Source of the DNA: Alphaproteobacteria bacterium
Lineage (GTDB): Bacteria; Pseudomonadota; Alphaproteobacteria; Micropepsales; Micropepsaceae
NCBI GenBank assembly: GCA_003139615.1
Contig: PLJH01000084.1
Coordinates: 1-33,589, forward strand
Reading direction: 5' to 3'
DNA length: 33,589 nt
Under the pieces are notes generated by a model. That model worked only from the letters and a program-made list of their open reading frames with translations. It ran no database searches and was not told the DNA's origin. Below, piece by piece: positions 8,006 through 18,511 of the stretch; the stretch's first letter is position 1, and each line of letters starts with the position of its first letter. The position numbers and the translations under genes were made by a program.

Positions 8006-8950
8006 GTGGCGCGGCTGTCCTACGATACGACTGAGACCCTGATTTACGATCCCGTTGCGGCCAACCGCACCGCGACGCGCGCAGCACTTTACAATCTGGG
8101 CTTTCGGCGTCTCGAAACGGTGGCGACGCTCGACGCGCTGGGGGAGTGCATCCGGCGCCGTCCGCCCGATCTGATCCTCTGCGAGGCGCAAGGTGCGGAA
8201 CCCGAACTCTGCGCCATGGTCCAGAAGCTCAGGCAAGGCGCGACCGTCTATAATCCTTTCATCGTGATCATCGTGACGGCGTGGGAGCACAACAGCGCGC
8301 TGGTCACGCGCGTGCTCAATTCGGGCGCGGACGATCTTCTGCTGCGGCCTTTTTCGACGACCACCTTGGGACAGCGCATTCAGAGCCATGTCGAGCGCCG
8401 CAAGGGATTTGTGATCACGTCCGAATATGTCGGCCCCGACCGGCGCAAGGATTCCGCGCGGCCCTCGAATGTGCCGCTTTTCGATCCCCCCAATTCGCTT
8501 CGCATGAAGGCGCAGGAAAGGCTCACGACGGAAGAAGCGACGCAACGTCTCGATGCCGAATTGAAAGCCGCGCGCGACATGCTGAACGCGGAGAAGCTGC
8601 GCCGCGATGCCTTCCAGATCTGCATCCTGTGGCGGCTCATGCAGGAATCGACGTCCAAGAAATTCGATATCGATCTGACGAAACTGAAAGACGTGACGCG
8701 CAGCGTGGCGCGCCGCTGCAGCGGCACCGATTTCGAGCCCGCCATCGAATGGTGCGATTCCATTCTGGCCGCGATCGAAGGGCTTGAACTGGGTGTGGAT
8801 CGCAACGCCTCGATGCATCTGCTGGGCCACGCCGCGTTGAATCTCAACCAGACCTTCTCGCCGGAAAAAACAGTCGCCGATCACCTGAACGCGATCGACG
8901 CGACGGTGGCCATCGTCAAAGCCCGCTTCGAGCCCGCGCTGGCGTCTTAG
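8006..8950 (+). CDS. Response-regulator-like protein with a degenerate receiver domain
   Basis: 314 aa from a GTG start. Residues about 10-125 resemble a CheY-like receiver: LIYDPVAANR at the first strand, DLILCEAQG where the phosphoacceptor strand should be, VTAWE, and LLLRPFS at the final strand. The phosphoacceptor Asp is replaced by Glu60 and the usual conserved Lys by Arg, so it is unlikely to be phosphorylated normally. The segment YVGPDRRKD after the receiver is common in alphaproteobacterial receiver proteins. The remainder (about 165-314) is helical, with a coiled-coil-like stretch and no DNA-binding or enzymatic domain I recognise. It lies 71 bp after tpiA and is convergent with the MFS gene. 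Partner unknown. Confidence 0.7.
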   Translation: MARLSYDTTETLIYDPVAANRTATRAALYNLGFRRLETVATLDALGECIRRRPPDLILCEAQGAEPELCAMVQKLRQGATVYNPFIVIIVTAWEHNSALVTRVLNSGADDLLLRPFSTTTLGQRIQSHVERRKGFVITSEYVGPDRRKDSARPSNVPLFDPPNSLRMKAQERLTTEEATQRLDAELKAARDMLNAEKLRRDAFQICILWRLMQESTSKKFDIDLTKLKDVTRSVARRCSGTDFEPAIEWCDSILAAIEGLELGVDRNASMHLLGHAALNLNQTFSPEKTVADHLNAIDATVAIVKARFEPALAS

Positions 8951-9002
8951 CGCGGGCGCTTGACGTGTATCCAAACTGAGACAAGACGAAATCTCCCGGC
9001 TG

Positions 9003-10415
9003 CTACGATTCCTTCGTGTTGACCTGCTCAGCTGACGTGGTTGATAGAAATTGAAGCGTGCGAAGGAATGGGCGTTCCGCTTGGCGCATCAGCAAATAGG
9101 CCAAGAGCCATGCCGGGGTTCCAACGATGACGATCGCTAGAATTAGGGCTCTAGATTCCCGGTGCAACAAATCGGACACGACGCCGACAAGGATACCGCT
9201 TGCCCCACCTATCGGCACAGTGATCATCGCGTATATCGCCGAGAGTCTCCCACGTAGACGTGGCGGCGAAAGATCCTGGATCAGATTTGGTGCAAGCGAG
9301 CCGGCGGCGACGCCAGCGACTGTCTGGATTGCGACGAGGATGTAGGCCTGCCAAGGCTCCCGCGCCGCGATCAGAAACAAGCCCGGCACCAAGGCAAAGA
9401 GCATTGAAATCCGCCCGATGCGCAAGGGTGCCAGTTTGCCGTATTTCGGCACGATGAATCGCATCGTGACCCCGGCGATAAGAATGCCGCTAAGGCTCCC
9501 GAGGCCTATCAACAGTCCCAGCGCAATTCCACTCGATGCGGGCGTCAAGCCGTAGAACCGCACAAGGACAATCGGCATCCATGCAAACGCAGCTCCAAAA
9601 GCAAAGGTGTAGACTCCGATCGAGCTGTAAACCGACGCGATCGTTCGGAATTGCGAGCGCAGATATGGCAGAAAGTCTGGAGCCAGCTCTTCGAAGGCGG
9701 ATGCAAGGTTTCGCGTTTCGCCTCGCGGCAATCGCAGAAAGCAGATCAGAAAGACCAGCAGCGGAGCCGGCAGGGCAACGACAAAAAACGCCAGTCGCCA
9801 CGTTTCCCATGTTTGCAGCCACAGCGGCAGGTGCGCGTGTTGCGAATTGAGAAGGCCTATCGCCATTCCACCGAAGCCCAGTCCCGACGCGACGCCCAAA
9901 ATCGCGGCCACATAAAAAATAAAATTTGCCGTCACGCGTTGCCGGTAAGGAAATAGATCAGGCAGCGTAGAATAAATGATAGGGCTGAGGCCCGTCTCTC
10001 CCGCCGCAATTCCGATCGTCGCAAGGAACAGCTGCGTGAAATTATGCGCGAGTCCGCAGGCTGCCGTCGCGCTAGCCCATATCAGCACACAGAGCGCAAG
10101 AACGATGCGGCGGTCGTAGCGGTCGGCGAGTAGGCTCAGGGGGAAAACAAGCACAGTTGTGAAAACTGCAAATCCGAGCCCCTGGACGATTCCAAGCTGT
10201 GAATCGGAGAGACTTAGCGCGTGCTTGATCGGCTCCGCCAATAGCGAGATAACCTGACGATCGACGAAGCCGAAAAGCGTCGCGACGATCAGAACCGCAA
10301 GCGCAAACCAAGCCGACGCAGGAGCCGCAGGCTCCCGATAATCGTCCGTGACGATGGTCGATCCGCCCAACGAGGCTTCTTCAGTTGTCACTTGGGGCCG
10401 ACAGTCGGGATGCAC
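9003..10415 (-). CDS. Major facilitator superfamily transporter (spinster-like)
   Basis: 470 aa with about 12 predicted membrane helices in two halves. After a roughly 35-residue polar N-terminus the first helix reads LIVATLFGFVDRQVISLL, followed by LADRYDRR, the conserved MFS loop between helices 2 and 3. This pattern is typical of the spinster-like or phthalate-permease-like MFS groups that occur beside TonB receptors in soil alphaproteobacteria. GTG start; 9 nt separate it from the receptor gene upstream, so the two form one operon. The likely role is to carry whatever the receptor brings into the periplasm across the inner membrane. Substrate unknown. Confidence 0.88.
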   Translation of the reverse strand: MHPDCRPQVTTEEASLGGSTIVTDDYREPAAPASAWFALAVLIVATLFGFVDRQVISLLAEPIKHALSLSDSQLGIVQGLGFAVFTTVLVFPLSLLADRYDRRIVLALCVLIWASATAACGLAHNFTQLFLATIGIAAGETGLSPIIYSTLPDLFPYRQRVTANFIFYVAAILGVASGLGFGGMAIGLLNSQHAHLPLWLQTWETWRLAFFVVALPAPLLVFLICFLRLPRGETRNLASAFEELAPDFLPYLRSQFRTIASVYSSIGVYTFAFGAAFAWMPIVLVRFYGLTPASSGIALGLLIGLGSLSGILIAGVTMRFIVPKYGKLAPLRIGRISMLFALVPGLFLIAAREPWQAYILVAIQTVAGVAAGSLAPNLIQDLSPPRLRGRLSAIYAMITVPIGGASGILVGVVSDLLHRESRALILAIVIVGTPAWLLAYLLMRQAERPFLRTLQFLSTTSAEQVNTKES

Positions 10416-10424
10416 TTCGATTTC

Positions 10425-12875
10425 TTAGAAATTTGCGGCCAGCTCGATTCCGATGGTGCGCGGCGTGAATACCGGCGCGGTTTGAGGCCCAAGGCCACCG
10501 GCGAATGTCGTCGGATCGACTGAACTGAACGCAATCGTATTTCCGACATTCTTCGCATAGAACGTCAGAGTCCAACCTTGCGTTTCGATACCGGCTCTCA
10601 GATCGAGCATGTTGTAACTCGGCATTTGTTGGCGTGGGCCGAAATCCGTGAAATCTGAAAAACGAGCACCCGAAAAGCGCCAGCTCGCGCCGACAAACCC
10701 GGAATAATCACCGAACAGAGGACGCTCATAACCGGCACTCGCGGCGCTTGCCCACATTGGGACGTTGGGCAACAAAGCGCCGGCGGCGCCGATCGCGGGC
10801 GGCGGCAGCGCCTGCACCAGCCGCGCATCCGTGTACGAACCATTGAGATTCAAAGTCAGGCCTGGAAGAGGAACATACCCGAAATTCCATTCGACACCGT
10901 CGCTTTGGGCGCCTCCTCCATTCGTGATTCCCTCCAAGCTGCCCTCCAACGCTTCGATCTGGATGTCGGACCAGTCGATGTCGAAGACGTCGACGTCGAT
11001 GCTGACGCTGTCGTCAAACAGGCTACTCTTGACGCCAGCTTCGTAATTGATCGTTGTCGACGAATTGTATTGTAGCGGGAGCTTAGAGAGCGGCAGGACA
11101 TCGTTGGGGCCGCCGGGCACGAAGCCGGTAGCGATCCTCGCATATAGCATTGTGTCCGGTGTCCAGTGCCAACGCGCGTCTCCCGAATAGGTGAACACGC
11201 CCTGCGAGGAATTGTTGAATATGTCGTCGGCCCCGGTAAGGAGGCCGGCATTAATCTGGCGATAGGTCTGACTGTTCGTACTATAGCGACCGCCAAACGC
11301 AACATCGAAGGCCGGCGTGATGTGATAATCGAGATTTGCGAAGCCGGCCAATTCCCGATAGGTCGGCGTTATGTTATAGGTTCCGAGATTGACGGGAAAA
11401 TTGTATAACACTTGATGGGTGGTGGGGTCGACAAGGAATAATTGTTCGTATTCTTTCGCATATTCGTGTGTGAAGAAAGCTCCGACCTGCCATTCCAGAG
11501 GCCCACCTGTGGTCGATGAAAGGCGAAATTCTTGCGTGAAATTATAGACCGGCTCTCTGGCAACCTCCGCGCCGCCGTACGTCGGCGGTCCGAAGATCGA
11601 CGTAAAGAGCGCTCCGTAATAGCTGCTCCCATCCGCGACGAGGCTGAGAGGCGTCTCTGCGTAGCTGGTCGAAGAGAGCAATTTAGCAAATCCGAGGTCC
11701 CAGTTTGCCGTGACGTTGTAGAGCTCGTTCTTGGTTTCCTCTGGCTGCGCGATGTATCGTTCCTGGATCAAATTGCCATAGATCGGGGTCAGAGTACCGG
11801 GGTTTAGATCTTCGTTGCTCGTATCGCTGGCGCGAATGTCCTGGTAGAGCACGTTGAATCGAATCGAAAAATTTTGCGTCGGCGCATACAGAAGCGACGC
11901 CCTCCCTCCCGAAACATGAATGCCGTTGATATCTTTCAACCCTCGTGAAGGATCATCGATATAGCCGGGATAGAAGCTGTCGAAACCGACCACGCGCAGA
12001 GCTGCATCATCGGAAAGGGGAATATTGACCATTGCATGGAGGTCAAAACCGTCGCCGCCGTGATCTACGGAGCTGAGGCCGCCCTGAGCGCTGGCAGCGA
12101 AGTCTGTCGGATCGGGCGCGTTGGTGACGTATTTCAGGAGGCCTCCCAGCGCCTGTGAGCCATAAAGTGTGCCTTGAGGCCCGCGCAATACTTCGATGCG
12201 CTGAAGGTCATATGTATCGAGATTGGGTGCGAGGCCCGGATTGGCGAATGGACCTTCGGATGTGTAAGGCGTCTCATCGAGATAGGTTGCCACCGAACTG
12301 TTGATGGAATCGGCGCCGATGCTCACACCACGCAGCACAAGCTGGTTTGTCACGGCCGAAGTCTGGACGAGCGTCATGCCTGGAACTTTGTCGATGTAAT
12401 CCTGGAAGCGCGTGGATTGCGTGCGGACGAGATCTTCGCCGCTGATGGCCGTTACCGACATGGGAACATCGCCTAACGCTTCTTCCCGCTTCTCCGCGGT
12501 CACGATGACCGTCTCGACGGTGCTCTTTGAGTTGTCCGGTGCCGGTTCATTCTCGGCGCTTTTTTTTGCGAAGGTGAGCACGATGGTCTGTCCGTCGTCG
12601 GATGCAACTACGACGCCCGTGCCGGCAAGAAGCGCTTTGAGCGCATCATGAAGGTCGAGCGCGCCCTTGATTGCGGGCGTCTGCACACCTTTAAGTTGAT
12701 CTGCCGGTGCAACAATCTGGACGCCGGCCTGGCGCGCGAATTCGGGAATAGCCTTGACTGCGTCTTCAGCCGGTATGTCGAATGTTCGCTGCTGTGCCCA
12801 GGCGACGCTTGTGGACAAGAGCGCAATCGCTGCCACGCTGCCGTTGAGCGCGGCTTTTCCCCAATTGATTTTCAC
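10425..12875 (-). CDS. TonB-dependent outer-membrane receptor with signalling (STN) domain
   Basis: 816 aa from a GTG start with an AAGGGGG ribosome site. Signal peptide about 1-27, ending SVAWA. Residues about 30-100 form a secretin/TonB short N-terminal domain, as in FecA-type receptors that signal to an anti-sigma factor. The plug domain starts near 125 (VETVIVTAEKREE, then DVPMSVTAISGEDL) and includes LRGPQGTLYGSQALGG. The beta-barrel ends in a terminal Phe (GIELAANF). It takes up a ligand using TonB energy and reports it to FecR. It shares an operon with the MFS gene and follows fecI-fecR. A candidate ECF promoter lies 67 nt upstream. Ligand unknown; the neighbours suggest a peptide rather than an iron chelate. 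Confidence 0.93.
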   Translation of the reverse strand: MKINWGKAALNGSVAAIALLSTSVAWAQQRTFDIPAEDAVKAIPEFARQAGVQIVAPADQLKGVQTPAIKGALDLHDALKALLAGTGVVVASDDGQTIVLTFAKKSAENEPAPDNSKSTVETVIVTAEKREEALGDVPMSVTAISGEDLVRTQSTRFQDYIDKVPGMTLVQTSAVTNQLVLRGVSIGADSINSSVATYLDETPYTSEGPFANPGLAPNLDTYDLQRIEVLRGPQGTLYGSQALGGLLKYVTNAPDPTDFAASAQGGLSSVDHGGDGFDLHAMVNIPLSDDAALRVVGFDSFYPGYIDDPSRGLKDINGIHVSGGRASLLYAPTQNFSIRFNVLYQDIRASDTSNEDLNPGTLTPIYGNLIQERYIAQPEETKNELYNVTANWDLGFAKLLSSTSYAETPLSLVADGSSYYGALFTSIFGPPTYGGAEVAREPVYNFTQEFRLSSTTGGPLEWQVGAFFTHEYAKEYEQLFLVDPTTHQVLYNFPVNLGTYNITPTYRELAGFANLDYHITPAFDVAFGGRYSTNSQTYRQINAGLLTGADDIFNNSSQGVFTYSGDARWHWTPDTMLYARIATGFVPGGPNDVLPLSKLPLQYNSSTTINYEAGVKSSLFDDSVSIDVDVFDIDWSDIQIEALEGSLEGITNGGGAQSDGVEWNFGYVPLPGLTLNLNGSYTDARLVQALPPPAIGAAGALLPNVPMWASAASAGYERPLFGDYSGFVGASWRFSGARFSDFTDFGPRQQMPSYNMLDLRAGIETQGWTLTFYAKNVGNTIAFSSVDPTTFAGGLGPQTAPVFTPRTIGIELAANF

Positions 12876-12941
12876 AACCTGCCCCCTTCGATGGCCGGCA
12901 GGCCGCGCTCATTTTGCAGCGGCCAACCGGCTTCCAGAGAC

Positions 12942-12965
12942 TAGACGCTCAAACTTCCTGTTTCC
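12942..12965 (-). promoter_or_regulatory. Candidate ECF-sigma promoter of the TonB receptor-MFS operon
   Basis: On the minus strand, GGAAAC (12960-12965), a 12-nt spacer, then CGTCTA (12942-12947). The same two-part motif occurs ahead of fecR, the S9 peptidase and the cyclophilin. The -35-like half fits the GGAA(A) core favoured by many ECF sigma factors. The half-site distance is somewhat shorter than in well-studied ECF promoters, so the assignment rests mainly on recurrence. Confidence 0.55.
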
Positions 12966-12996
12966 CCCACACGTCATTCACGGGAATTTCACGATG

Positions 12997-13971
12997 CTAT
13001 CGTGAGAGCCGTACCTGGCCCTCGCCAACCTGCACTCGCAAATTCAAAGACAGCGCAACGGCCCTGGCGAATCCAACCGGATCGTTGGAAACGAAAAGTC
13101 CGGTGATCGTCTCACTTGCGACCGCCGGATCGTCGATGACGATTTGGGTATCGCTGTAGCGCGCGAAGGACGCGGCCGCGTCACGTAAGGTCGAGCCTTC
13201 GAATGCGAGTCTACCCTCCCGCCAGGCGAGCGCACGGCTCACTTCGGAGGGCGCGACAGCGAAAGCAGCAATGGCAGCGTTGCTGGGGGCAATCGCGCGC
13301 GTGTTCGCCGCCACGCGCACCGCCGGCGCAACCGGCACGCCCGGCCGCTTCACCTCAACCACACCTTCGCGCACGAGGACTTGCACCGGGCCACCGGGCA
13401 AACGCTCGACCGTGAAGCTGGTGCCGACCGCGCGCACCTGCGTATCGCCAGCCTCAACGACAAAGGGGCGATTCTTGTTCTTCGCGACATCGAACAGGGC
13501 CTCACCCTGGACAAGCACGATTCCGCGACGCTCTGCCGTGTAACGAACCTCTATTTCCGATTGGGTGTTGAGCGTCACGACGGAGCCGTCTTCGAGGGAA
13601 ACAACGCGCGTCTCCCCGAGCCCTGTCGCAACGCCCCCCACGCTCCGCAGGTAAAACGTCGTCCCGGTGACCAGGGCCACGGTCGCCGCAGCTGCCGCCG
13701 CGCCGCCCATAAGCATCACACGACGCGAAGGGCGCAGCACCGGGCGTGGCGCGAACGTCGCAGGATCGAAATTTACGCCCAGCGCGCGGGCGCGATCGGT
13801 GTGAAGGGCTACCGCCCGAGCTTTGGCGTATGCCCCCAAATGACGTGGATCGACCGCAAGCCAAGCCTCAAGGGCCACCTCCTCCTCGTTGGAAAGCGGA
13901 CGCCCATCGATCTTAGCTGCCCAATCGGCCGCAATATCGTCAACCTGTCGGCTCGGTGTCCGCTTTTCCAT
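12997..13971 (-). CDS. FecR-family anti-sigma factor
   Basis: 324 aa. The cytoplasmic N-terminal DUF4880 region (about 8-55) contains AADWAAKIDG and EEVALEAWLAVDPRH. One membrane helix lies at about 83-105. The periplasmic FecR domain follows (ETRVVSLEDGSVVTLNTQS, GEALFDVAK, VRAVGTSFTV), then a C-terminal STN-like region with AWREGRLAFEGSTLRDA. It should hold the neighbouring sigma factor inactive, or make it competent, until the receptor's signalling domain contacts it. Its start overlaps the 3' end of the sigma gene by 32 nt, indicating coupling. A candidate ECF promoter lies just upstream inside the sigma gene. Ordinary length and domains for the family. Confidence 0.93.
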   Translation of the reverse strand: MEKRTPSRQVDDIAADWAAKIDGRPLSNEEEVALEAWLAVDPRHLGAYAKARAVALHTDRARALGVNFDPATFAPRPVLRPSRRVMLMGGAAAAAATVALVTGTTFYLRSVGGVATGLGETRVVSLEDGSVVTLNTQSEIEVRYTAERRGIVLVQGEALFDVAKNKNRPFVVEAGDTQVRAVGTSFTVERLPGGPVQVLVREGVVEVKRPGVPVAPAVRVAANTRAIAPSNAAIAAFAVAPSEVSRALAWREGRLAFEGSTLRDAAASFARYSDTQIVIDDPAVASETITGLFVSNDPVGFARAVALSLNLRVQVGEGQVRLSR

Positions 13972-14539
13972 GCTTCAGAAGCTGTGTGTTCGCATCCCTA
14001 GACGCTTCGGAGGGCGATTTCCCCCCACGGCCGAAGGCTGCCATCAGCAGCCGAATGGCGCGTCCCATATTTTTTTCTACCGTGCTTTCCGTCACCCCTA
14101 ACCGCTCGGCAGTCTCGCGCTGGGAAAGGCCTTCTACGCGGCGAAGCATGATCACCTCGCGGCTTTTTTCCGGCAGACTCGTGATGAGCTCCGCAAGCTG
14201 CTGCAGCTCGTCCCGGTCCTCGATCTGCCGTTCCGGCGACGGTTCGGGGGCCGCCGCTCCAAAATCGTCCAGGTTTGCAGCCGCGCGGATCGAAACGATA
14301 CGGCTACGCCGGACATACGAAACGATGATGGAATGCGCGATCTGAAACGAGTAGGTCTTGCCATCTCGAATCTCGTCCACCGACTCCAGGCTCGCCAGCT
14401 TGGCATAGGTTTCCTGCACGATGTCGTCGACTTCGAGCCCGACAACCCGTTTTCGCATGAGCCACGCGCGCAACGCCGGCTCATGCGGCAGAACATGCCG
14501 CGAAAGCCACAAAGCCCGCTCGTCCAATACCCGCCTCAT
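13940..14539 (-). CDS. FecI-type ECF RNA polymerase sigma factor
   Basis: 199 aa from the ATG at 14539 (MRRVLDERALW); an in-frame start 45 nt upstream would add an atypical arginine-rich leader. Sigma region 2 includes VDDIVQETYAKL and TYSFQIAHSIIVSYVRR. Region 4 includes LPEKSREVIMLRRVEGLSQ with a helix-turn-helix ERLGVTESTVEKNMGRAI. The FecI group directs transcription of its cognate TonB receptor after an outer-membrane signal. The gene overlaps fecR by 32 nt and is divergent from the S9 peptidase. The tail beyond region 4 (about 30 residues, GRGGKSPSEASRD) is poorly conserved-looking and overlaps a candidate promoter for fecR. No copy of the shared motif was found ahead of this gene itself. 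Confidence 0.93.
   Translation of the reverse strand: MRRVLDERALWLSRHVLPHEPALRAWLMRKRVVGLEVDDIVQETYAKLASLESVDEIRDGKTYSFQIAHSIIVSYVRRSRIVSIRAAANLDDFGAAAPEPSPERQIEDRDELQQLAELITSLPEKSREVIMLRRVEGLSQRETAERLGVTESTVEKNMGRAIRLLMAAFGRGGKSPSEASRDANTQLLKHGKADTEPTG
13999..14022 (-). promoter_or_regulatory. Candidate ECF-sigma promoter of fecR, inside fecI
   Basis: Minus strand: GGAAAT (14017-14022), a 12-nt spacer, then CGTCTA (13999-14004), 28 nt ahead of the fecR ATG. Flanks resemble the receptor promoter: both have a run of G before GAAA and end AGCGTCTAG. It lies within the coding sequence of the sigma factor's tail, so coding constraint could also explain part of it. Confidence 0.45.
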
Positions 14540-14629
14540 GCCACAATTCTGACGCCAACGGGCCGCCAAGCGCAAGCCCATCACTCATCCGAGATTGGAG
14601 GGCGACGATTTTGTGCGTGCAGGCGTAGC

Positions 14630-14654
14630 GGAAACCCACCTTCCCAAGCGTCTA
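14630..14654 (+). promoter_or_regulatory. Candidate ECF-sigma promoter of the S9 peptidase
   Basis: GGAAAC (14630-14635), a 13-nt spacer, then CGTCTA (14649-14654). The region just around CGTCTA (AAGCGTCTAATC) agrees with the receptor site (GAGCGTCTAGTC) at 10 of 12 positions. It lies in the divergent region between fecI and the peptidase. Transcription would begin about 115 nt before the chosen ATG or about 40 nt before the alternative GTG at 14703. Confidence 0.5.
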
Positions 14655-14777
14655 ATCACGCTCACCGTTTGAGGAGCAGCTTGCAAGGCGTTCGTTCGTG
14701 CTGTGCCTGACCGCGCGTGCGACGCTTTGGACTGCGATCGCTTCAAGTACACTGAAACTCAGTTGTGGAGAGGCAAA

Positions 14778-17144
14778 ATGCCCGATTCCTGGCGGGAAAA
14801 ATACGCCATTATCCAATCGCTGCTGTTGCACGATCACAAGATGGTTGCCAACGGCGCCGTCTATCCGCGTTGGATCGAAGACAGCAACAACTTTTGGTAT
14901 GAGCGCCAGACAGCGACCGGAGTTGAATACAGGATCGTCGAGGCCAAGAGCGGCAACAATCGCCTTGGTTTTGCCTTCGAAGAACTGGCCGAAGCTCTCG
15001 AAAGCAAGCTGGATGTCAAGATCGACCGCGACATCTTGATGCTCCGAAATCTTCAGATATTCCTGGAGCCGGACCGCGCAACCTTTGAGGCTTACGGAAA
15101 ATATTGGGAATACAGCCGCGGCGAACTTGCGGAAGCAACCAAGATTTCTGACCAAGGATGGGCCAAATCGCGGGACACCAAATGGGCTGCCTTCGCGCGA
15201 GACAACAATCTGTGGCTGCGCGAGATCGCAACCGGCGCCGAGCGTGCGCTCACGACCGACGGAACGGACACATTCGCCTATGCCGATAAGCCATCGTCCG
15301 CCCGCTATGTGCGACGAATGCTCGGTGGCATGCCGCCGGAAGGCATCTGGTCACCCGACTCGAAATTCTTCCTGACCCTTCAGACCGACGATCGGCAGGT
15401 GCCCGATCTAGCAGTGATGAACTATGTTCCTGAAAGCGGTATCCGCCCGGAAGTCGCATCGAACAAGACCAGCCTACCTGCCGATCCCAAGGTCACCGAA
15501 TTTCGGATTGTTGCGATCGAAGCTGCAACGGGGCGCCAGATCGAAGCTCGTTACCCGCGCCTGTCGGCGGTGCGAATGAACGATACTCCATTCGCGGCGG
15601 GACTCGCCTGGTGGAACAACGACAGCAAGACAGCCTACTTCGTGGATATCGAGCGCGGAGAGAAGTCGGCGCACGTTGTCGCATTCGATATCCCGACCGG
15701 ATCCACGCGGGTCGTTTTCTCGGAATTGTCCGCGACCTATGTCGAATTAGGCGTTAATGTTTACGCACCGGCGCTGATATTTCCGCTTCCCGCGACCGAA
15801 GAGCTGGTCTGGTATTCCGAGCGCTCCGGTCATGGCCATCTCTATCTTTATGACCTGCGCAACGGCGCACTGAAGAACTCAATCACGAGTGGCGACTGGC
15901 AGGTTCGTGAAGTCGTTCACGTCGATGAGGGCCGCCGTGAGGTTTTTCTGCGCGCGGGCGGGATAGCCGCCGATGAAGACCCATACATCACAAAACCTTG
16001 CCTCGTCGGCTTGGACGGCGGCAAGGTCCAAATTCTTTCGCCCGAACCTGGGGAACACATCGTCTGGCGCGCGAGAGAATTCAGCCTCATGGCATTGGCC
16101 ATGACCGGGGCCGATCCGAGGCTCGTATCGGGTCTTTCGCCGGATGGAGAGTTTTTCGTCGAGACCATCGGTTCGATCGACCGCTTGCCGCAAACCATAC
16201 TGCGCACACGAGCCGGCAGGCAGGTCGCAATCGTCGAAACCGCGGAAGCCCGAGGGCTACCGAAGGAATGGCAATGGCCCGAAGCGGTATCGCTGAAGGC
16301 TGCCGACGGGAAGACCGATGTGTACGGTCTGCTGTTCAAGCCGGTAAACTACGATCCGTCGAAATCCTATCCGGTGATCGATTTCATCTATGGCGGCCCG
16401 CAGGTTTCCTGGGTGCCGAAGATCGCGTTCGTCGATGCCGTGGCCACTGGCACATTCATGGAAGCCGCAGTGCTGGCGACGCTAGGGGCATTCGCGTTCG
16501 TTCTCGACGGCCGCGGCACTGCCGGGCGCGAACGGGCCTTTCGCGAAGCCTCCCACGGAGCTGTCCAAACGGCATCGAATCTGGAGGATCACGTCGCCGC
16601 GATCCGCCAGCTAGGCGAGCTCTATCGAGCTATGGACCTCAATCGCGTCGGCATTACGGGATTCTCGGGCGGCGGCTATATGACGGCGCTTGCTGCCTTC
16701 CGGCATGGGGACTTCTTTAAAGTCGCGGTTGCTGGAGCCGGCAACTACGATCAGGCGCTGTTCTGGCACTCTTGGGGCGAACGCTATCACGGCGCATACG
16801 AGCCTGAACTCTATCGAGCCCAGGCCGCAAAGACCTACGCGTCAGGTCTGACCGGAAAGCTCATGCTGATTCATGGCCTGATGGATTCTGGCTGCCACCC
16901 CGCGGCGTTCTTTCAACTCGTCCAGGCGTTGATCGAGAACGACAAGGATGTCGATCTCGTAGTCCTACCAAAAGCTCGACATGAACTGACAGGCTATGGC
17001 GCTCGCCGCCGGTTGGACTATTTCGTCACGCATCTGTTCGGTTCCACGCCGCCTCCAGCGGTGAAATTCACCTTGCCGTTTGACAATGTGTTGAAACGGT
17101 TTGCCGCGAACGCCATGCTGCCCGAGAAGAAAAGCAGTGACTAA
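14778..17144 (+). CDS. Cytoplasmic S9 family serine peptidase (DPP IV/prolyl oligopeptidase-like)
   Basis: 788 aa from the ATG at 14778, which has a GGAGAGG ribosome site; a GTG at 14703 would add 25 residues. No signal peptide, so probably cytoplasmic. Residues about 90-520 resemble a DPP IV-type beta-propeller (EGIWSPDSKFFL, LYLYDLRNG). The C-terminal alpha/beta-hydrolase domain has catalytic Ser630 (GFSGGGY), Asp703 (HGLMDSGCHP) and His735 (KARHEL). The double-Glu motif by which true DPP IV holds a free N-terminus is not seen; the corresponding stretch reads TFAYADKP. It may therefore be an endo- or isopeptidase. It is divergent from fecI-fecR-receptor-MFS, as are the isopeptidases of lasso-peptide loci. 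Its stop codon overlaps that of the cyclophilin. Confidence 0.88.
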   Translation: MPDSWREKYAIIQSLLLHDHKMVANGAVYPRWIEDSNNFWYERQTATGVEYRIVEAKSGNNRLGFAFEELAEALESKLDVKIDRDILMLRNLQIFLEPDRATFEAYGKYWEYSRGELAEATKISDQGWAKSRDTKWAAFARDNNLWLREIATGAERALTTDGTDTFAYADKPSSARYVRRMLGGMPPEGIWSPDSKFFLTLQTDDRQVPDLAVMNYVPESGIRPEVASNKTSLPADPKVTEFRIVAIEAATGRQIEARYPRLSAVRMNDTPFAAGLAWWNNDSKTAYFVDIERGEKSAHVVAFDIPTGSTRVVFSELSATYVELGVNVYAPALIFPLPATEELVWYSERSGHGHLYLYDLRNGALKNSITSGDWQVREVVHVDEGRREVFLRAGGIAADEDPYITKPCLVGLDGGKVQILSPEPGEHIVWRAREFSLMALAMTGADPRLVSGLSPDGEFFVETIGSIDRLPQTILRTRAGRQVAIVETAEARGLPKEWQWPEAVSLKAADGKTDVYGLLFKPVNYDPSKSYPVIDFIYGGPQVSWVPKIAFVDAVATGTFMEAAVLATLGAFAFVLDGRGTAGRERAFREASHGAVQTASNLEDHVAAIRQLGELYRAMDLNRVGITGFSGGGYMTALAAFRHGDFFKVAVAGAGNYDQALFWHSWGERYHGAYEPELYRAQAAKTYASGLTGKLMLIHGLMDSGCHPAAFFQLVQALIENDKDVDLVVLPKARHELTGYGARRRLDYFVTHLFGSTPPPAVKFTLPFDNVLKRFAANAMLPEKKSSD

Positions 17145-17737
17145 TTCGAGCCCACTCTCTGCGCGAACAAAATCATCACGGGATCGCGAATGAGCTGGCC
17201 TTCGAGGTAGGCCACCGGGGCGTCCTGCTGCGTTGGCGCGCCGTGGATCGCGCGAACAATCTCCATGCCTTCTACGACGCGGCCAAAGGCGGCGAAGCCC
17301 TGGCCATCTTCGTTGCGCGTCGTTCCAAAATCCAGCGCGGGTTGATCGCCGATACAGATGAAAAAAGTGGCAGACGTACCCGTGCCGACTGCTGCGCGCG
17401 CGAGTGAGACGGTTCCGTCGACGTGGCGAATGCCGGTCTTCATTGTGGTCTCGTGCGGAACGCCAGGATGCGCCTTGGACATATCGGCGACTGCTGCCTG
17501 GACCACCTCGATAGGCGGGGCTCCGCGATCGTTATCGGCCCGCACCGTGCGAAAGAAAGAAGCGCCCGCGTATGCGCCTCCCTCGACGCATCGCAGGAAG
17601 GCGGCAGCGGAGATGGGGGCTCGGTCGAGATAGACTTCGATCGCCACAGCGCCCAGCTCCGTCACCAACCGGACCCGTTCTGTCAGCGGAGATGCTTGCG
17701 GAGCAGGATCGGTGGCAATCGCGACATCGTCATTCAT
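17141..17737 (-). CDS. Cytoplasmic cyclophilin-type peptidyl-prolyl isomerase
   Basis: 198 aa from the ATG at 17737 (MNDDVAIATD). An upstream GTG at 17770 lies only 5 nt from the candidate promoter, so it is disfavoured. Cyclophilin features: VTELGAVAIEVYLDRAP, SFFRTVRADND with the catalytic-type Arg, VVQAAV, SLARAAVGTGTSATFFICI, and GFAAFGRVVEGMEIV. No signal peptide, so cytoplasmic. Cyclophilins isomerise X-Pro peptide bonds. Its placement beside an S9 (Pro-linked) peptidase and a shared promoter motif suggest that it helps present proline peptides for cleavage; that is inference. It is convergent with the peptidase and their stops overlap by 4 nt. Confidence 0.9.
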   Translation of the reverse strand: MNDDVAIATDPAPQASPLTERVRLVTELGAVAIEVYLDRAPISAAAFLRCVEGGAYAGASFFRTVRADNDRGAPPIEVVQAAVADMSKAHPGVPHETTMKTGIRHVDGTVSLARAAVGTGTSATFFICIGDQPALDFGTTRNEDGQGFAAFGRVVEGMEIVRAIHGAPTQQDAPVAYLEGQLIRDPVMILFAQRVGSN

Positions 17738-17774
17738 GAAATCGCCGTGCCTGAATAAGCCATTGCGCACCAGT

Positions 17775-17798
17775 TAGACGAATGAGGACAGAGAATCC
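17775..17798 (-). promoter_or_regulatory. Candidate ECF-sigma promoter of the cyclophilin
   Basis: Minus strand: GGATTC (17793-17798), a 12-nt spacer, then CGTCTA (17775-17780). The -10-like half is identical to the other three sites; the -35-like half differs at two positions from GGAAAC. It places the transcript start about 30 nt ahead of the chosen ATG at 17737. Confidence 0.4.
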
Positions 17799-17970
17799 GC
17801 AACCGCAGATCAAAGCGATCAATCCATCGGGCGCTGGAATTCCAGTCCTCGAAAGGTTGTCCTCCGGGCATGATTGGTGCAGCTACGCGGAAGCCAGGAA
17901 CCAACTCGCCGCGAATTTGACTCCCTGCCGGAGACCGCACCATCCTTCTTCCGTCTCAGGCGGGGGATCG

Positions 17971-18438
17971 ATGGGGCAGGACGAAGCCCGGCGCTACGGG
18001 TTCGGGATGAGCCGCGAAGCGCATATCGCGTTCGTGACGATTTACCTTACGATCTTGCTGCTGGTTGCCGGGTTCGGCGTGCTGCGCTTAGCGGCCGCGC
18101 TCCCGTTCCGGGCGCCGCTATGGAATCGCCCGGCCGCCGCAGTGATGCGCGATCACCCCTATCCCATTTCCGATCCCGCCCGGCTGGGCCCGCACCAGGC
18201 CACCTATCCTCCCATCGCAATGAAGCTCCATCAGGAGGGGGATGTGCTCCTTCGGCTGACGGTATTGCCGGACGGCACCGTGGGGGACGCCAAAATCCTC
18301 ACATCGAGCGGCTCGCCGCAGCTCGATGCCTCGGCGCTCGTCTCGGTGGGGTATTGGCGGTATTGGCCGGCCAGGCGCGCCGGAAAGCCGGTCGCGGCCA
18401 ATGTGACCGTCAGGGTGAAGTTCAAGTTGGCGACCTAG
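17971..18438 (+). CDS. TonB-family C-terminal domain protein
   Basis: 155 aa from the ATG at 17971, preceded by GGGGGA; the frame is open upstream but has no good start. One membrane helix at about 23-44 (TIYLTILLLVAGFG). The C-terminal half is a TonB C-terminal domain: YPPIAMKLHQEGDVLLRLTV, PDGTVGDAKILTSSG and LDASALVSV. TonB proteins pass proton-motive energy from ExbB-ExbD to outer-membrane receptors. This one lacks the long proline-rich spacer of classical TonB and has no exbBD nearby, so it may not span the periplasm. It could serve the receptor at 10.4-12.9 kb, but it is also next to the core gene secG and may be independent of that cassette. Confidence 0.85.
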   Translation: MGQDEARRYGFGMSREAHIAFVTIYLTILLLVAGFGVLRLAAALPFRAPLWNRPAAAVMRDHPYPISDPARLGPHQATYPPIAMKLHQEGDVLLRLTVLPDGTVGDAKILTSSGSPQLDASALVSVGYWRYWPARRAGKPVAANVTVRVKFKLAT

Positions 18439-18511
18439 GCCCTTTCCCGCGCCCGGGCTTTGGTCTAAGAGCGGCCCGGAAAATAGACACACATTCATCC
18501 GGCCCGGTTCC

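Follow-up and report, generated by a model that had tools for sequence, protein, structure and literature searches.

The window analysed here is an entire contig of 33,589 nt (PLJH01000084.1, assembly GCA_003139615.1) of an alphaproteobacterium of the family Micropepsaceae, whose genome comprises 4.65 Mb in 142 contigs. Among its genes are those for a FecI-type extracytoplasmic function (ECF) sigma factor, a FecR protein, a TonB-dependent receptor, an S9-family peptidase and a cyclophilin, and these are accompanied by four copies of a bipartite GGAAAC-like/CGTCTA sequence. Comparison with related loci makes it highly likely that the four copies serve the FecI-type sigma factor (13940-14539) as -35/-10 promoters, driving an uptake-and-digestion cassette. 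The four sites are listed below, with scores from a matrix trained on other genomes:

Site 1: 12942..12965, minus strand, GGAAAC-N12-CGTCTA, predicted promoter of the TonB receptor and MFS genes, score 22.3.
Site 2: 13999..14022, minus strand, GGAAAT-N12-CGTCTA, within the 3' end of the sigma gene, predicted fecR promoter, score 23.9; relatives have sites at the same junction.
Site 3: 14630..14654, plus strand, GGAAAC-N13-CGTCTA, predicted promoter of the S9 peptidase gene, divergent from the sigma gene, score 22.7; relatives have similar divergent sites.
Site 4: 17775..17798, minus strand, GGATTC-N12-CGTCTA, candidate cyclophilin promoter, score 17.4, the weakest of the four.

The genes concerned, and the segment that holds them, are:

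9003..10415, minus strand, MFS transporter, starting 9 nt after the receptor gene.
10425..12875, minus strand, TonB-dependent receptor with an N-terminal STN domain (residues 52-101), plug and barrel, by domain profiles.
12997..13971, minus strand, FecR with DUF4880 and FecR domains, by domain profiles.
13940..14539, minus strand, FecI-type ECF sigma factor with regions 2 and 4 (Sigma70_r2, Sigma70_r4_2).
14778..17144, plus strand, S9 peptidase of the dipeptidyl peptidase IV (DPP IV) type, by a family profile match and alignment to bacterial DPP IV structures.
17141..17737, minus strand, cyclophilin-type peptidyl-prolyl isomerase, convergent with the S9 gene, their stops overlapping.
18007..18438, plus strand, TonB C-terminal domain protein, its start placed by eye (the domain scan began at 17782).
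8975..18440 (approximate ends), no strand, accessory cassette of about 9.5 kb between a receiver-domain gene (8006-8950) and secG (18512).

The coordinates and strands that a first-pass annotation of this DNA had claimed for all four sites are borne out by reading the sequence. Counted from the end of CGTCTA, the likely start codons lie at 66 nt for the receptor (GTG 12875), 27 nt for fecR (ATG 13971), 123 nt for the S9 peptidase (ATG 14778) and 37 nt for the cyclophilin (ATG 17737). A search for GGAAAY-N11-14-CGTCTA gave three hits in the window, and 100 dinucleotide-shuffled versions of it gave none; the CGTCTA hexamer by itself shows no enrichment there (9 found, 7.1 expected). Genome-wide the same pattern has five occurrences. 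Three of them fall within 1.7 kb in the window; the remaining two, with spacers of 11 nt, are inside open reading frames (ORFs). The pattern read backwards likewise occurs five times.

The same motif emerged from other genomes. Matches to the sigma factor at E 1e-15 were present in 25 of 96 genomes of the family, its own included, and a separate scan of genomes with genus names yielded 57 sigma loci, the near ones belonging to Asticcacaulis, Caulobacter, Brevundimonas, Phenylobacterium, Sphingobium and Gluconacetobacter, among others. We used 58 loci, namely the nearest 18 of the 57 (L039-L056, 41-62% identity) and the best 40 of 59 family matches. Near-identical regions were dropped, leaving 54 of 56 regions before fecR and 50 of 52 before receptors, with the window in neither set; the 58 sigma-upstream regions were not thinned, and L056 and L110 apparently represent the same place. 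A bipartite expectation-maximisation (EM) search from random starts (200 for the real data, 60 for the shuffled control), allowing gaps of 9-18 between hexamers, returned GGAAaT-N12/13-CGTCTA as the top motif in the 125 nt before receptors (50 regions; log-likelihood 122 vs 35 shuffled) and gGGAAA-N13/14-CGTCTA in the 85 nt before fecR (54 regions; 255 vs 34 shuffled), the latter being the receptor motif moved by one base.

A combined matrix, trained like the held-out matrices from the GGAAAT/CGTCTA consensus, drew sites from 74 of the 104 regions (31/50 receptor, 43/54 fecR). In the held-out tests the matrix built on fecR sites scored at least 14 in 21 of the 50 receptor regions, vs 26 of 2000 regions drawn at random from those loci, and the matrix built on receptor sites did so in 36 of the 54 fecR regions, vs 6 of 2000 random ones. 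An alternative source of the motif at the fecR junction would be conservation of the coding sequence where the sigma gene ends. Site 2 does lie inside the sigma ORF, and EM on 230-nt upstream regions put other, probably coding, motifs first, ranking ours below the top in the fecR set and leaving it out of the motifs printed for the receptor set. Since regions of 230 nt run into the coding sequence of the preceding gene, they were cut to 125 and 85 nt. Given that the same motif was found separately before receptors, and that either set, fecR or receptor, predicts the other, we regard a coding origin as very improbable.

The matrix was run over the whole window and the fetched loci, and elsewhere in the genome on pattern hits only. 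In the window it ranks the four sites 1-4 (fecR 23.9, S9 22.7, receptor 22.3, cyclophilin 17.4), the next place scoring 16.4. The best hit per shuffled window had a mean of 15.3 and a maximum of 21.1 (40 shuffles); sites 1-3 (22.3-23.9) exceed the best of every shuffle, and site 4 does not. The four sites also rank 1-4 among the 22 zero-mismatch pattern hits of the genome, followed by one at 15.8, and with one mismatch allowed sites 1-3 head the 51 scored genome places, 11 of 41 hits that had no locus having been left unscored. ORFs in these checks are stop-to-stop frames, some of which are possibly not genes. As to the first-pass concern that hits might be as common in coding as in upstream DNA, the strict pattern withstands it and the pattern with one mismatch does not. 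No regulon members were recognised elsewhere among the zero-mismatch hits, which outside the four sites score at most 15.8 and of which the only one outside an ORF (L158) precedes nothing convincing; a one-mismatch hit at 16.8 (L230) lies in no long ORF. The core loci of 12 relatives (161 kb) contain no hit of at least 17.4 and one of at least 16. Sites 1-3 are secure, since they stand above all shuffles and on top of the scored genome places.

For site 4 the support is moderate, and it comes from position, strand, membership of the cassette and the variant hexamer found in relatives. It is a real possibility, if somewhat short of an even chance, that the receptor, fecR and S9 sites are the only genuine ones, site 4 being a chance match and the cyclophilin a passenger of the cassette. 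Of 300 shuffled windows, 40 contain a hit of at least 17.4 (mean 0.14 hits per window), and ten other one-mismatch places in the genome, all within ORFs, outscore site 4. A strict count at 17.4 gave five cassette hits, apparently sites 1-3 and two second registers, with site 4 slightly below 17.40. The three closest cyclophilin homologues (44-46%) have no site upstream and have different neighbours; the idea of the cyclophilin as a conserved partner elsewhere was abandoned on reading them. On the other side, site 4 is on the right strand, 37 nt before the ATG and within the same cassette as the rest, and in loci with related sigma factors GGATTT variants of the motif occur ahead of GH43, S9-family and receptor genes. 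Similar sites stand before one GH43 gene and two S9-family genes beside such sigma factors. Carbohydrate genes adjoin several of the related FecIR-receptor loci, GH43 by Pfam in L099 and lyase- or pectinase-like genes by eye in L041 and L049.

A GGAA-type -35 and a CGTC-type -10, the pair of traits expected of an ECF promoter, are both present, and GGAA...CGTC resembles known ECF elements. Operators of a DNA-binding repressor or activator can also be bipartite repeats, and the spacer is short for an ECF promoter. The repeats here are nonetheless asymmetric and oriented with the gene, the hexamers look like those of ECF promoters, the motif recurs beside FecI homologues in several alphaproteobacterial genera, and the cassette genes scanned include no other regulator, all of which makes operators an improbable explanation. 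For promoters read by the FecI-type sigma factor, the spacing is the unusual feature: the search admitted 9-18, yet both the window and its relatives have 12-13 nt between hexamers, where about 15-17 had been expected. Two RpoE4 target promoters of Sinorhizobium meliloti, as printed in PMC6180224, count to spacers of 15 and 16, and a promoter scan for ECF02 and ECF11 described in PMC10880074 used spacers of 15-17.

If one sigma factor reads both the fecR and the receptor site of a locus, the two -10 hexamers should agree within that locus, and they do, matching at 5.13 of 6 positions vs 4.45 in permuted pairs (p 0.0002; 23 loci with both sites, L110, L114 and L125 excluded by hand). Several observations weigh against promoters of this sigma factor, besides the ranking in the 230-nt regions and the counts given for site 4. 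The within-locus agreement may come from shared clade history, and spacer length shows none (p 0.73, 23 loci). In the held-out tests 29 of the 50 receptor regions and 18 of the 54 fecR regions fell below the cut, so that the motif is not universal among related loci or has drifted there. The spacer is about 3 bp shorter than in published ECF examples. In principle the sites might be recognised by one of the genome's other ECF sigma factors, which are 30-34% identical to this one. Taken with the evidence above, the first-pass claim that the FecI-type sigma factor drives all the transcripts is well supported for the receptor (with MFS), fecR and the S9 peptidase, for which motif discovery, held-out tests, within-locus agreement and genome-hit ranking speak together; for the cyclophilin it finds moderate backing only, the shared cassette and the GGATTT sites of relatives being set against an ordinary score and site-free homologues.

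The placement of the sites is unusual as well. The fecR gene has its own site within the 3' end of the sigma gene. Among relatives, 43 of 54 regions carry a site before fecR, and in the loci looked at (e.g. L042, L096, L100, L103-L106) this site overlaps the end of the sigma match. An own-strand site of at least 14 within 250 nt upstream of the sigma gene was found in only 1 of the 58 loci, and the sigma gene of the window has none. Directly upstream of its start (14540-14600, minus strand) a loose sigma70-like TTGCGC ... CAGAAT can be seen by eye, and several relatives have TTGCAA ... TTTCCT at the corresponding place; this suggests a near-leaderless sigma mRNA.

On the opposite strand of that 250-nt stretch, a site of at least 14 is present in 15 of the 58 loci, vs 55 of 2000 random regions, and a 400-nt scan at a cut of at least 13.5 placed a divergent site in 16 of 58. 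The far edge of the divergent site is 120-133 nt from the sigma start in ten of these 16 (L098, L100, L104, L121-L124, L126, L129, L135) and 116 nt from it for the S9 site of the window; several of the ten belong to one clade and hence do not represent ten independent events. In the window the divergent site is followed by the S9 gene, in L099 by a GH43 gene (at 212 nt, outside this interval) and in L127 by a gene 119 nt further on; in L098, L100, L104, L126 and L135 what we saw nearby was at most ORFs running antisense to the neighbouring gene. Tentatively, and with less than even confidence, these features could be read together: an alphaproteobacterial FecI-type clade may have a promoter geometry of its own (spacer 12-13 vs about 15-16), may place its anti-sigma gene under the sigma factor from within the sigma gene, and may keep a divergent sigma promoter some 116-133 nt upstream, with or without a gene behind it. 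Where there is none, its transcript would be an antisense or regulatory RNA belonging to the circuit, and elsewhere the divergent promoter would have captured genes of substrate-specific enzymes (S9 peptidase, GH43).

The domain content of the sigma factor, FecR and the receptor fits FecI/FecR cell-surface signalling. Against two FecI models the sigma factor scored 74-76 bits, under their cut-offs of 185 and 260, and is therefore related to E. coli FecI and not E. coli FecI itself; a search of the genome returned one close copy of it. The receptor and MFS genes are probably on the same transcript. In the S9 peptidase the Ser-Asp-His triad is matched in the alignment to bacterial DPP IV structures, and no signal peptide was evident by eye. 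DPP IV enzymes have a motif with a Glu which we take to anchor the N-terminus of the substrate; in the alignment to the Porphyromonas gingivalis enzyme (2d5l) the REF stretch lies opposite residues without Glu, beside a gap, and strict dipeptidyl-peptidase activity of the window protein is doubtful. A peptidase homologue in L146 (35%) has an MFS-like ORF, recognised by eye, two genes off, a weak parallel to the window.

All four sites lie within what looks like an accessory insert. The secG gene was located in every one of 16 selected family genomes, and we read 12 of these loci. The order trpE-ppiD-tpiA-receiver-domain gene-secG, with pyrG beyond secG, is kept in 12/12. In seven, nothing but the receiver-domain gene was seen to separate tpiA from secG (gap 1.1-1.3 kb), and in the other five the gap is 1.8-4.1 kb, vs 10.6 kb in the window. 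The extra DNA includes a relative of the TonB C-terminal protein in L208 and a gene pair of about 390 and 505 aa in L210 and L213. No tblastn match (E 1e-5) to the MFS, receptor, FecR, FecI, S9 or cyclophilin proteins was found in these 12 loci, and it is from the 10.6-kb gap and the missing counterparts that we regard the cassette as inserted. Its ends carry only short, poor repeats, and the window holds no tRNA gene. The TonB C-terminal protein may be outside the cassette proper, its relative standing alone at the same place in L208.

To judge from the sites, expression of the receptor, FecR and the S9 peptidase is very probably turned on jointly by the sigma factor. A substrate would bind the TonB receptor, whose STN domain would signal to FecR in the inner membrane, and FecR would then free or activate FecI. 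RNA polymerase with FecI bound at the sites would transcribe receptor and MFS, fecR, the divergent S9 peptidase and probably the cyclophilin, with fecR transcription starting from within the end of the sigma gene. The sigma gene itself, as it has no such site, would presumably be made from a housekeeping promoter. Uptake and digestion would in this way come under positive control, and the extra FecR made upon each activation would act as feedback. The receptor would take the substrate across the outer membrane and the MFS protein across the inner one, where a cytosolic DPP IV-like hydrolase would cut it; from this combination of receptor, inner-membrane MFS and probably cytosolic DPP IV-like enzyme, we infer that the substrate is probably a peptide, and the prolyl isomerase would suit proline-containing ones.

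Because FecI-type sigma factors do not autoregulate, their promoters are missed when motifs are sought, as is usual, in front of the sigma gene. Searching before fecR and the receptor instead yields a clear motif here, so that the regulons and substrates of such systems become predictable. The short spacer raises the structural question of how these sigma factors hold the -35 and -10.

Lasso-peptide isopeptidase loci combine an S9 peptidase with FecIR and a TonB receptor, and share with the window the S9 peptidase beside FecIR and receptor. We rejected the reading of the window peptidase as such an isopeptidase: the lasso peptide isopeptidase model (NF033523) gave it 26 bits, vs a cut-off of 400, and the enzyme is DPP IV-like instead; no lasso maturation gene was found in the subset of window ORFs scanned. 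No published account of the motif was found in titles, the starts of abstracts and passages, a scope that did not take in the ECF reclassification (10.1093/nar/gkaa1229). Rhodius et al. (2013; PMC3817407) likewise modelled ECF groups by bipartite -35/-10 elements and omitted the FecI-like groups ECF05-10 as non-autoregulating. With FecI/FecR/SMc04205 of S. meliloti the window shares the alphaproteobacterial order fecI-fecR-receptor; according to PMC6180224, that FecI could not be assigned to any ECF group, and a matching promoter motif was missing ahead of fecI, fecR and the receptor gene alike, whereas the window has sites before fecR and the receptor gene.

With the E. coli Fec system, as set out in PMC9249621, the window has in common a FecI-type sigma factor, FecR and a receptor with a signalling domain. 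In that system FecI acts together with FecR to bring polymerase to the fecA promoter, and fecIR does not regulate itself; a sigma factor that drives the receptor gene while its own gene is not autoregulated is thus common to both, as a prediction on the window's side. In E. coli fecIR is one mRNA under Fur and FecI drives fecA, whereas in the window fecR has its own site in the sigma gene and, again unlike Fec, a divergent peptidase gene has one too. Nor do the neighbours (peptidase, cyclophilin, MFS) suggest iron. The best receptor model is siderophore-type, though at 107 bits it stays below its cut-off of 223.5, and iron uptake is the less likely reading. The first-pass observation is borne out and its interpretation mostly stands; we see the locus as a variant of known FecI/FecR signalling, with strong evidence for three targets and moderate evidence for the fourth.

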